Assembly (NCBI GenBank): GCA_018000995.1
Contig: JAGNIU010000005.1
Span: forward strand, 1 to 64,000
DNA length: 64,000 bases
Reading direction: 5' to 3'
Origin: Bacteroidia bacterium
Lineage (GTDB): Bacteria > Bacteroidota > Bacteroidia > B-17B0 > Aurantibacillaceae
The number at the start of each line of letters is the position of its first letter. Position 1 is the stretch's first letter. The notes beneath the pieces were generated by a model, which searched no databases, was not told the origin of the DNA, and saw only the letters and a list, made by a program, of their open reading frames with translations. The position numbers and the translations under genes are program-made. Positions 1 through 4,122 of the stretch are shown one piece after another.

Positions 1-2161
1 AACGTTCTAACTGTACATTGAAGTCGGTTAAAATGGTATTCTTCTTTTTGTTTAAAACAGAAAGTTCTTCTTCAATTAAATTTAATTTCTGACGGTTACC
101 GCTTAATGAAGTTTCGATTTCAGTGCCTGCTTTTTGTTTCCACTCTTCTAATTCTTCAATTAGTTTTTGTTCGCGTTTCTCAGCTAATTCTAAAGAGTAA
201 GCTAAAACTTTAACGTCTTCTTTATATTCACCTAATTGTTTCCCAAAACGATCAGCAGCTAACATCTTCTCTTCGTTATTAGCAACTTGGAATTGGTTTA
301 AAGATTCTTCTAAATCTTTAATTTGTGCCAGACGTTCGTTTTTCTCGTGTTGATATTCTTCAATACTTTTCGATACAACTTCAACCTGACCTAATTCTAA
401 ATGGATACCATATAAAGTCTTGGCTGATTCTGCTTTAAACTCAGGGGTTAAATCGGTACGGAATAATAGTTTTTCGTTTACTACTTTACCAATGGTGGTA
501 TGCCAGTCTTTTACGTTTTTCTCTAAATAACCATAAAACGCATCGTGTTGTACATTTAATTTATCCTCAATTTCCTTAATCTCATTTTTTAATTTGATGA
601 TTTCGTTATTGATTTTATTAACCTGATTATTTAAAGAGGTTTTTAATTTTAATTCAGTCGCTTCCCACTCACGTGTCAAGGTCTGAACCATGTTTTGCTT
701 AATAGCGCGCTCAGATTTGTTTTTGTAGTTGATGGCACGCAATTCCGCTAATTCACTTTCTAAGCCTTTAATCTCAGTTTCGTAGAAACGTGTGTTGCGG
801 ATTACTTTCTCTTCCGATTTTAATTCGTTAAACTCAATTTGCTTAGCGGTAGTTTCAGAATTTAATTCATCAATTGCTTCTTCGCGTTTTGATTTTAATT
901 CAGTATCCTTTTTATTGTATTCGTTTTTCTGTAATAATTGTAATTCGTTATAGTGATTAAATACTTCACCGGTTTTAGAATTTATCTTATTAATGTACGC
1001 CGATTTATCATTACGTAATTGTTCAATTAAAGAAGAATACTTTTGCTCGATACTGGAAACGTTAGAGGTTAACGATTCATATTCGCGACGAGCAATATTT
1101 AAATCAACCTGTAACTTTTCACGCTCAGCGTTTTTTTCTACAGCTTGTTCAATGTTTTTCTCTTTATATTCTTTTAATTTCTTGTTCGCATCACGGATGG
1201 TACGGTCGTAGTAACCAATTTCCTCGCGGATATCTTTTTGCTTTTCTTCTAAATTAGTTTTAAAAGTATCATGCGCTTCCACTAAACCATCTAATTCTTC
1301 TTCCTTCTTCTTTGCGGCTTCACGGATAGTTTCGTTTTGAGTTTCAGCATAACGAAGACTGCTTCCTAATTTGTCAGCTAACTCCATTTGTGAACCCTTC
1401 AACATGTGAACCTGATCGTATTTTTTATCAATCAATTCAACCAACTGCTGACTTTCCTTCTTTAAGTAAGTTTCAATATCTGCATACTTCTCGTTAAACT
1501 GACGAAGCTGACGTTCTACTTGTTCTAATTTAATACTAGAGTTCTCAGTTGTTAAAGAGTTAGCGATAAAATCCTTAATGAAACGGGAATCGATACTGCT
1601 TTTAGAACTTAAGAATACGTTAGTAATAGATTTCGGAATGTTTTGATATTTCTCGTTACCTTTTAATAAATGGAATTTAGAAAGCATTTTATCTGTCTCA
1701 GTTCCATAAATAATATTTCTGTAACGTTCGAAGGTATCGATTTGATTAGAGATAAAAATACCGCGTTTTTCAAAACCACCGATTACTTCTTTAATCTTCA
1801 TCGCTTCATCATTCGCATTTAAGAAGAAATCCGGATTGTACGGCGCATCAAAGAAACGGAATACTAATTTATTGTGACGGTACACCATTACACAAAACGC
1901 TGAATCTTCAGTCGTAATTTCATAAATTAAATATGAATTTTCGAAACGGAAGTAGTGTTCCTCAAATGTTTTTTGTGATTGAGCAATACCTAATCCACGA
2001 CTATTAGCGCTATAGAAAAATAAAATAGCACGTTGTAACGATGTTTTTCCGTAGTTGTTTGTTCCCACAAAACAGGTGTTTCCGCACAATTCAATATCCG
2101 CATACTTTACGTTGGTGATATTAATCTCAACAATCCTGTTTAAAATTCTGGTGTTTTCCAT
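1..2161 (-). CDS. jetC: JetC/MksB-like SMC-family ATPase (N-terminal 720 residues; runs off left edge)
   Basis: The reading frame opens with ATG at 2161 and stays open to the window edge, giving 720 codons without a stop. A beta strand (RILNRIVEINITNVKY) leads into a Walker A motif, GTNNYGKTS, at residues 33-41, the arrangement of an ABC/SMC-type head. From roughly residue 225 onward the sequence is almost unbroken charged coiled coil rich in Lys, Glu, Gln and Leu, as in SMC, MukB and MksB arms. Walker B, the ABC signature and any hinge lie outside the window. It follows MksF-like and MksE-like genes on the same strand, so I infer the loop-extruding motor of a Wadjet-type condensin. A Rad50-like or other SMC-like ATPase is the alternative, but the two upstream partners argue against it. 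The Walker A departs from the usual GxNGxGKST form. Confidence 0.75.
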   Translation of the reverse strand, partial: MENTRILNRIVEINITNVKYADIELCGNTCFVGTNNYGKTSLQRAILFFYSANSRGLGIAQSQKTFEEHYFRFENSYLIYEITTEDSAFCVMVYRHNKLVFRFFDAPYNPDFFLNANDEAMKIKEVIGGFEKRGIFISNQIDTFERYRNIIYGTETDKMLSKFHLLKGNEKYQNIPKSITNVFLSSKSSIDSRFIKDFIANSLTTENSSIKLEQVERQLRQFNEKYADIETYLKKESQQLVELIDKKYDQVHMLKGSQMELADKLGSSLRYAETQNETIREAAKKKEEELDGLVEAHDTFKTNLEEKQKDIREEIGYYDRTIRDANKKLKEYKEKNIEQAVEKNAEREKLQVDLNIARREYESLTSNVSSIEQKYSSLIEQLRNDKSAYINKINSKTGEVFNHYNELQLLQKNEYNKKDTELKSKREEAIDELNSETTAKQIEFNELKSEEKVIRNTRFYETEIKGLESELAELRAINYKNKSERAIKQNMVQTLTREWEATELKLKTSLNNQVNKINNEIIKLKNEIKEIEDKLNVQHDAFYGYLEKNVKDWHTTIGKVVNEKLLFRTDLTPEFKAESAKTLYGIHLELGQVEVVSKSIEEYQHEKNERLAQIKDLEESLNQFQVANNEEKMLAADRFGKQLGEYKEDVKVLAYSLELAEKREQKLIEELEEWKQKAGTEIETSLSGNRQKLNLIEEELSVLNKKKNTILTDFNVQLER

Positions 2162-2207
2162 TCTCTCTTTTTATTTAGTTTCTGTATTTTTTATCTTGTA
2201 AACGTGT

Positions 2208-2230
2208 GTCATCCTGAGCTTGCCGAAGGG
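2208..2230. repeat. Short palindromic repeat (CCTGAGCTTGCCGAAGG type) between jetB and jetC
   Basis: The 23 bases contain the core TCCTGAGCTTGCCGAAGG, which recurs in altered form at 36921-36948 and 53435-53457. Dispersed elements of this type are common between genes in Bacteroidota. The jetB stop codon (TAG on the minus strand) begins at the very next base, and the element lies in the 69-base gap before jetC. Confidence 0.6.
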
Positions 2231-2836
2231 CTAGTTATAAATAATTCCGCCAGTTCCTTCTTCCGGACTAGTTTCCTCGTAAATAGCAATTGAGTTAATC
2301 ATATCTAACAAATACGAATACGCATCCATTACTTTGTAGCTCTCTGTTTGTTCGTCTTCTAATTCTAAAAACGAATCACGGGTCATTAAATCACAAATAT
2401 CACGCACCTTGTTCAATAAAGTTTCAGAGCGGTACATTGGAATTTTCTGTAATTTTTGTTTCAAACGAACATTCGCATTACACTCTTCCGAAATTTCGCT
2501 TGGGCGGAAACGTGAACCAATAGTGATTTTATTATCCATACTTGCGAATAAATCAATAACATCGATATAACGTTCAAACGTTTCTAATTTTTTCTCAATG
2601 ATACTATTCGCTTCGCTTGTTTTTGAGAAATAGAAATAATTATTTCCTCTTTCAATATTGTAACGAATAACGTTAAAATACGCCTGTAAACGATCGAAGT
2701 TATCAGGGTTATTGATGATATCATACAAACGTCCCATGTTATCTCTAGAACCATTGCTGGAAATAAAATGTCCACGCGCCATAATGGCGAAAATATCGTG
2801 GGTTTGTTTCGGTAAGTTAAAATCTTCTGCTGTCAT
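2231..2836 (-). CDS. jetB: JetB/MksE-like condensin subunit (DUF4194-like)
   Basis: This 201-residue soluble protein has the size and layout of MksE/JetB winged-helix accessory subunits (about 190-220 residues). Near the N-terminus it shows the family-style pattern of an Ile/Ala-Met-Ala-Arg-Gly-x-Phe-Ile segment, a downstream LYDIINN element, then a YFNVIRY segment followed by GNNYFYF. In MksBEF and Wadjet complexes this subunit binds the kleisin (JetA/MksF) as a dimer and helps gate the SMC motor. It starts 44 bases after jetA ends and is followed after 69 bases by jetC, so the three are probably co-transcribed. The family call rests on pattern recognition and gene order; a profile search against MksE/JetB would settle it. 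The stop codon directly touches a dispersed palindromic repeat. Confidence 0.7.
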   Translation of the reverse strand: MTAEDFNLPKQTHDIFAIMARGHFISSNGSRDNMGRLYDIINNPDNFDRLQAYFNVIRYNIERGNNYFYFSKTSEANSIIEKKLETFERYIDVIDLFASMDNKITIGSRFRPSEISEECNANVRLKQKLQKIPMYRSETLLNKVRDICDLMTRDSFLELEDEQTESYKVMDAYSYLLDMINSIAIYEETSPEEGTGGIIYN

Positions 2837-2880
2837 GATAGTTTATAGTTGAGTGTCTATAGTTTATAGTTTTCTCCGCA

Positions 2881-4122
2881 CTAAGCGGCTTTTTTCTTCT
2901 TTTTTTCTTTTTCTTCGGTTACGGGTAAAATCACAGTGTATCCTAGTCGTTTTTTCTTTTCCCCTACTTCGTATTCAAAATAATTTAAACGGTATCTGAA
3001 ATCTAATTCTTTCTCATATTCCATCGCAATCTCAACGAATAACGATAGTCGGTCTTCAAATTTTACATCTCCGATTGCTTTCGGGAATTTATAATCCATC
3101 AAGTACTCAAATAAATTCGCTTTGTTCTGAGCAAGGAAACGGTCAACCAATTTCTCGGTATCCAATTTAATTTGGTTGTCAACCATTTTATCCTTGAAGT
3201 TGCTGGCCATTTTACCTGCCATACCACGCGCCATTAAACGGGAAATTTTATATTTCTCCGCAATACGCTTACACAAAACATGTCCGTCGTCAGTTACTAA
3301 AAAATCGAGCGCAATTTTGGTACGCGGACCTTTCACACCGTTAAATCGCAAAGGTTTTACAGCTCTTACAATTTCATTAAAATTAGTTCTGAAATGCAGA
3401 GCTCCGTGATCTTTTACCTCTTTCAGTTTTTGTGCTTTCACATACACATCCAGCTGGAATTGAATTTTGTTGATGTAATCGGTAATGTCGGTTTGAATTT
3501 CAATTAAGAAGTCTAAGTTCTCAATCAAATTCGCTTTCAAAGAGTTTACAATACCGTAAAGTTCTGTATCGTTAGTCATGCTGAACAAAGCACGTGTTTC
3601 GGTAATAACCTCTTCTGTTTTCTGAATGAAATCAATGATTGTATCACGTTTCTGGCGGTAATCTTCCAGCTTTTGAATTTTTATGCGGTAGTTACTTTCG
3701 TTTTTGTAAGTATCATCCACATTTTTTTGAAGCTTGATGATTTCGCGAGAGAGAGCGATGTTGATGCGTTTTAAATATTTTTTTATGCTGCGTAAAAAAC
3801 GGTGTTCGTGTACTTCTTGATAGAAGCGGATGTGACGTTTTAGTTCGTTGATGTAATCGTTGATGAAGCCCGGCGTTACCTCTCCAATCTCCATGAAATC
3901 TTCGAACATCGCTACAACAGCGTCGTTCAAACTCACAATACTTTCGTATTCGTAAACCAAATCCAGTGAGCGGAGTTTTTGATATTGATCCGCAGAGAGA
4001 TCTTCTCGCGCCAATAATTCGTTAACCGTTATGTTTTCACGGTTGGCGAACAAAAATTCAACTACGCCACGGTTGTGGTAAAGTTGTGATAATATATCTT
4101 TTACATTGACCTGTAATGCCAT
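2881..4122 (-). CDS. jetA: JetA/MksF-like kleisin subunit of a condensin-type complex
   Basis: The protein has 413 residues. Residues 1-75 look like a winged-helix domain (VVEFLFANRENITVNELL, then a second helix pair). The middle, about 85-235, is long amphipathic helix, and the C-terminal third is mixed alpha/beta ending in a Lys-rich tail (EKEKKKKKAA). This matches MukF/MksF/JetA: N-terminal winged helix, helical neck and C-terminal winged helix that bridges the SMC heads. Known JetA proteins are usually somewhat longer (about 450-500 residues). It is the first gene of the operon jetA-jetB-jetC, the order known for Wadjet. The ATG at 4122 has no competing upstream start. The alternative is a stand-alone MksBEF condensin acting on the chromosome; finding JetD/MksG beyond the left edge would favour defence. 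Confidence 0.7.
   Translation of the reverse strand: MALQVNVKDILSQLYHNRGVVEFLFANRENITVNELLAREDLSADQYQKLRSLDLVYEYESIVSLNDAVVAMFEDFMEIGEVTPGFINDYINELKRHIRFYQEVHEHRFLRSIKKYLKRINIALSREIIKLQKNVDDTYKNESNYRIKIQKLEDYRQKRDTIIDFIQKTEEVITETRALFSMTNDTELYGIVNSLKANLIENLDFLIEIQTDITDYINKIQFQLDVYVKAQKLKEVKDHGALHFRTNFNEIVRAVKPLRFNGVKGPRTKIALDFLVTDDGHVLCKRIAEKYKISRLMARGMAGKMASNFKDKMVDNQIKLDTEKLVDRFLAQNKANLFEYLMDYKFPKAIGDVKFEDRLSLFVEIAMEYEKELDFRYRLNYFEYEVGEKKKRLGYTVILPVTEEKEKKKKKAA

Follow-up and report, generated by a model that had tools for sequence, protein, structure and literature searches.

The operon at the left end of the window, the 64,000 nt stretch of DNA analysed here, specifies a nuclease-free MksBEF complex, which most likely serves the host family as chromosome condensin. 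Its motor would be an ATPase dimer of MksB, with MksF as the bridging kleisin and MksE as the KITE subunit. As expected from these protein families, such a complex would extrude loops of chromosomal DNA, by which sister chromosomes would be compacted and segregated. Elsewhere this role is taken by SMC-ScpAB, and in E. coli by MukBEF; in the host family it would fall to MksBEF.

The genes mksF, mksE, and mksB are adjacent, all on the minus strand, and separated by intergenic gaps of 44 and 69 bases, consistent with one operon (Table 1). The three co-directional genes of 413, 201, and at least 720 aa described in the initial annotation were found as such. The order F-E-B is common to most loci of the host family. 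The window starts at the left end of contig C26 in the host genome (3.6 Mb, 77 contigs, 98.8% complete), and mksB runs into this edge. The last 71 codons of the gene, including an intact Walker B motif (CIIDEVG), are located on another contig (G000:C32:44135-44347), and about 436 codons, estimated from the length of a relative, are unassembled between C26 and C32. Full-length relatives of MksB consist of 1,227 aa. While Walker B had thus been correctly anticipated beyond the edge, the signature motif, expected there as well, falls inside the assembly gap in the host's own gene.

Table 1. Features of the mksF-mksE-mksB operon in the window
Feature	Position	Strand	Basis
mksF / jetA-like kleisin, 413 aa	2881..4122	-	ORF; family orthologues; AlphaFold2 model, Foldseek, VIA
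mksE / jetB-like KITE subunit, 201 aa	2231..2836	-	PF21980 MksE; family orthologues
mksB / jetC-like SMC ATPase, first 720 of ~1,227 residues	2..2161	-	PF12128 DUF3584; open at contig end
MksB Walker A GTNNYGKT, residues 33-40	2042..2065	-	read in translation

There is good support for placing this MksBEF/JetABC operon in the MksBEF family. MksE matched PF21980 (E 1.1e-30, 107.5 bits, cut-off 27), and MksB matched PF12128 (DUF3584) far above the cut-off (E 1.1e-53). The profile matches foreseen for all three proteins were therefore obtained for two of them; for MksF, no significant match was detected in Pfam, NCBIfam, or PADLOC, and its assignment relies on a structural model. NCBIfam yielded nothing useful for any of the three operon proteins, and PADLOC returned no match for MksE, no Jet match for MksF, and a weak match to JetC (E 0.014). 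Searches of PDB sequences produced coiled-coil or chance matches only with the MksB and MksF profiles, and one designed protein plus chance matches with the MksE profile. The AlphaFold2 model of MksF is of moderate quality (mean pLDDT 73, pTM 0.41) and shows one winged helix at each terminus with a helical domain between them. Its best Foldseek match was MukF (9gm7_C, E 3.2e-4). Comparison by VIA gave a Z of 13.8 over 243 residues with MukF 3rpu_B, at a high rmsd of 9.4, and a Z of 11.0 at a likewise high rmsd of 7.0 with Wadjet-II JetA. Since unrelated helical bundles matched the middle domain with equally high scores, weight was given to the alignment spanning two domains and to the operon context. 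With moderate confidence, MksF appears to be a MukF/JetA-type kleisin with terminal winged helices. Taken with the Pfam matches, the model agrees with the kleisin, KITE, and SMC-like ATPase of JetA/JetB/JetC type recognized initially.

All three subunits are conserved in the host family. Orthologues of MksE are 68-93% identical in most of its genomes, those of MksF 54-96%. The Walker A residues G33, G38, and K39 of MksB are invariant in alignment A1, and 60 of 60 distinct MksB proteins of the family retain the Walker A, signature, and Walker B motifs, three of them with the Walker A variant GANNYGKT. Among close relatives, nucleotide changes are overwhelmingly synonymous, with dN of 0.03-0.09 against a saturated dS of more than 1. 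The missing jetD and the broken mksB might be taken to indicate that a former defence operon is decaying here. However, mksB is interrupted by a gap in the assembly, its end being present on C32, and for the family as a whole a relic is refuted by the conservation of sequence and ATPase motifs, so that decay is extremely improbable.

The distribution of the operon was determined in a class sample of 396 Bacteroidia genomes, each at least 90% complete and 19 of them from the host family, and in a search of 37 host-family genomes (36 besides the host's own). In the class sample, MksE and DUF3584 above cut-off were detected in 19 of 19 host-family genomes. In the other search, MksE orthologues or pieces of them were present in 30 of the 36 genomes, frameshifted in one (G029); of the six without a match, five are at most 84% complete and the sixth 92%. 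All host-family genomes with known records are metagenome-assembled or uncultured bins. The host family formed one clade with support of 100 in a quick tree, whose deeper, long-branched nodes are uncertain. Six of six genera with several species were recovered as clades in the MksB tree, which indicates vertical inheritance. Genes flanking the operon vary between genera, while the operon genes persist.

Several deviations from the common arrangement were noted within the family. In G015, a distance of about 93 kb separates mksE from mksB on one contig (L048, L188) and mksF is contained in neither stretch read, suggesting a scattered operon. In G029, mksF, mksE, and mksB are fragmented in several frames (L052:5774-9885), for which sequencing errors in the metagenome-assembled genome are the likely cause. 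In several genera, a protein of 329-354 aa with a probable signal peptide is encoded between mksE and mksB (L174:6918-7937, L165:6935-7936, L168:1900-2898, and others); the one from L174 matched no Pfam family.

According to the initial annotation, a jetD gene was to be expected beyond the left edge. On C32, mksB is followed by a glycosyltransferase gene instead, as in the close relative G006, and the host genome contains no match to the JetD family PF09983. No jetD was found beside the operon in more than 70 host-family loci read, and the gene downstream of mksB differs between the genera, leaving no conserved neighbour. The Wadjet label, which requires JetD, was consequently dropped in favour of the alternative also put forward at the start, an MksBEF-type system without nuclease.

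Five family genomes possess a separate Wadjet-like locus with a JetD-like gene in addition to the JetD-less operon (L050, L051, L120, L133, L140). For two of the 19 family genomes in the class sample, it was detected by a PF09983 match within 5 kb of a second, dissimilar MksE (L133, L140); G007, G030, and G012 likewise harbor a further operon that includes a JetD-like gene (L050, L051, L120). In the locus of G007, mksB is divided between two ORFs, one of 551 and one of 594 aa (L050:4299-7981), and may be broken or misassembled. The JetD of L051 matched PF09983 with an E of 7e-5 and DUF7281 with an E of 2e-9. A DUF7281-like JetD subtype is 285 aa long. The JetD subtype found in G007 was missed by PF09983, so that a solitary, distant JetD of this kind could be present in the host genome. 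Being diverged, the subtype is seen by PF09983 weakly at best, which would leave room for Wadjet defence with a JetD gene at another site, or with some unrelated nuclease supplied in trans in its place, and the fold and F-E-B order are the same as in JetD-bearing operons of the class. Against it stand the negative PF09983 search of the host genome, the variable gene downstream of mksB, the poor PADLOC matches, and the universal and vertical inheritance, which is unlike that of a defence island. Wadjet defence of this kind is accordingly considered quite improbable.

The condensin reading draws on the absence of the standard complex. ScpA was found in none of the 19 host-family genomes of the class sample and, searched with PF02616, in none of the 37 genomes of the relatives search; E. 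coli as ScpA control was negative. Full-length SMC (TIGR02168) did not reach the cut-off in any of the 37 genomes, the best score being 63.5 bits against 567. With ScpA and full-length SMC both missing, MksBEF is the only condensin detected in the family. Defence, the function originally suggested, is unsupported, given that every well-sequenced family member has the locus, that it is vertically inherited, and that SMC-ScpAB is lacking. A nuclease-free complex could also act mainly on plasmids and other circular DNA, silencing or hindering them without cleavage, instead of folding the chromosome: Wadjet motors recognize circular DNA of small size, and circular viral DNA is restricted by Smc5/6 without being cut (PMC10586767). 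This appears unlikely, since universality and the missing standard condensin fit a housekeeping role better and some family members own a separate JetD-bearing system. What speaks against a role as condensin is that nuclease-free MksBEF can coexist with SMC, as in Cytophagales (see below) and in P. aeruginosa (PMC7485682).

Across the 396 genomes of the class sample, MksE and ScpA tend to avoid each other: 16 genomes have both, 107 MksE only, 78 ScpA only, and 195 neither (Fisher p 6e-4, odds ratio 0.37, uncorrected for kinship). MksE as the universal answer for Bacteroidia without SMC was rejected on account of the 195 genomes with neither. Either Bacteroidia can do without a condensin, or there are condensins that escaped detection, possibly in the host family too.

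The closest operons outside the host family are those of Cytophagales, with about 40% identity in MksB. Four Cytophagales formed the sister group of the host family in the quick tree, and ScpA was present in 4 of 4. The operons of Sporocytophaga, Chryseosolibacter, and Parachryseolinea are without JetD, whereas one Cytophagales metagenome-assembled genome has it. A strict pairing of JetD loss with ScpA loss was rejected, since these three genomes have a JetD-less operon together with ScpA. Most of the more distant F-E-B operons with an MksB of about 1,220 aa include JetD.

Reading of loci from other families without ScpA revealed further JetD-less operons of different subtypes. The operons of families f11, f21, f29, f43, f57, and f4 are arranged B-F-E and encode an MksB of about 880-910 aa; this layout, with about 880-905 aa, is nearly fixed in f11 and f21. 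JetD-less B-F-E loci are L106-L111, L113, L115-L118, L122, L126, and L131; in L136 and L112, which are of the B-F-E type as well, JetD is inserted between B and F. Families f37 and f16 have JetD-less F-E-B operons of another subtype, and the MksB of f37 matches the MukB N-terminal domain. Genomes with ScpA and a complete operon mostly possess JetD (6 loci), the exceptions being L145 and the Cytophagales. The overall pattern is consistent with repeated loss of JetD linked to loss of SMC-ScpAB, without proving it.

Such a distribution would be expected if defence motors repeatedly became housekeeping condensins, which is speculative. By this scenario, Bacteroidia lineages would have converted Wadjet-type motors into their sole condensin on several independent occasions, with JetD and SMC-ScpAB absent in every case. 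Besides the host operon, which would descend from a JetD-bearing ancestor, the cases would comprise two groups from other families without ScpA: the JetD-less B-F-E operons, with an MksB of about 890 aa, and the F-E-B operons that are MukB-like. We regard it as a serious but tentative possibility.

Two further arrangements were observed in the class. In the ScpA-positive family f2, MksB-like proteins of 1,020 and 1,050 aa are encoded beside an MksE gene (L101:7842-10904 and L102:3940-7092). They have no recognizable N-terminal Walker A and are possibly ATPase-dead MksBEF derivatives kept alongside SMC-ScpAB. In one sublineage, an extra gene is located between mksF and mksE (L153:5953-7302, L157:6064-7374), its L153 copy with a Fic/DOC domain.

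In a Hi-C study of two Bacteroidetes, no homologue of known condensins was found, and distant SMC homologues were suggested to await identification (PMC10197239). That suggestion also bears on the groups of the class in which neither complex was detected, half of the sample. No report on MksBEF or on SMC absence in Flavobacteria/Bacteroidetes was found, nor was a description of MksBEF fixed as the sole detected condensin of a Bacteroidia family in the literature searched, which did not include the 2011 MksBEF discovery paper. Descent of MukBEF and MksBEF from defence systems has been a speculation in a review (PMC10586767). A clade without nuclease and SMC-ScpAB, in which the motor is fixed and which has JetD-bearing relatives in the same class, makes the step from defence to housekeeping testable by phylogeny, Hi-C, and genetics.

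Among known systems, MksBEF of P. aeruginosa without MksG likewise consists of a kleisin, a KITE subunit, and a MukB-like ATPase and has no nuclease (PMC10586767). P. aeruginosa has SMC besides MksBEF (PMC7485682), whereas in the host family neither ScpA nor full-length SMC was detected and the complex is universal across the whole family. With Wadjet (JetABCD/MksBEFG), the host operon shares homologues of JetA, JetB, and JetC and the F-E-B order, and homologous operons with JetD occur in the same class; it differs by the absence of JetD beside the operon and by a universal and vertical instead of a sporadic and scattered distribution. MukBEF is the condensin of E. coli and its relatives. The host-family MksB, with about 1,227 aa, matches DUF3584 and not the MukB Pfam domain, but the MukF-like fold of the kleisin is shared, and MksBEF is probably the chromosome loop extruder of the host family, comparable to MukBEF, which serves as condensin in a lineage likewise lacking SMC-ScpAB.
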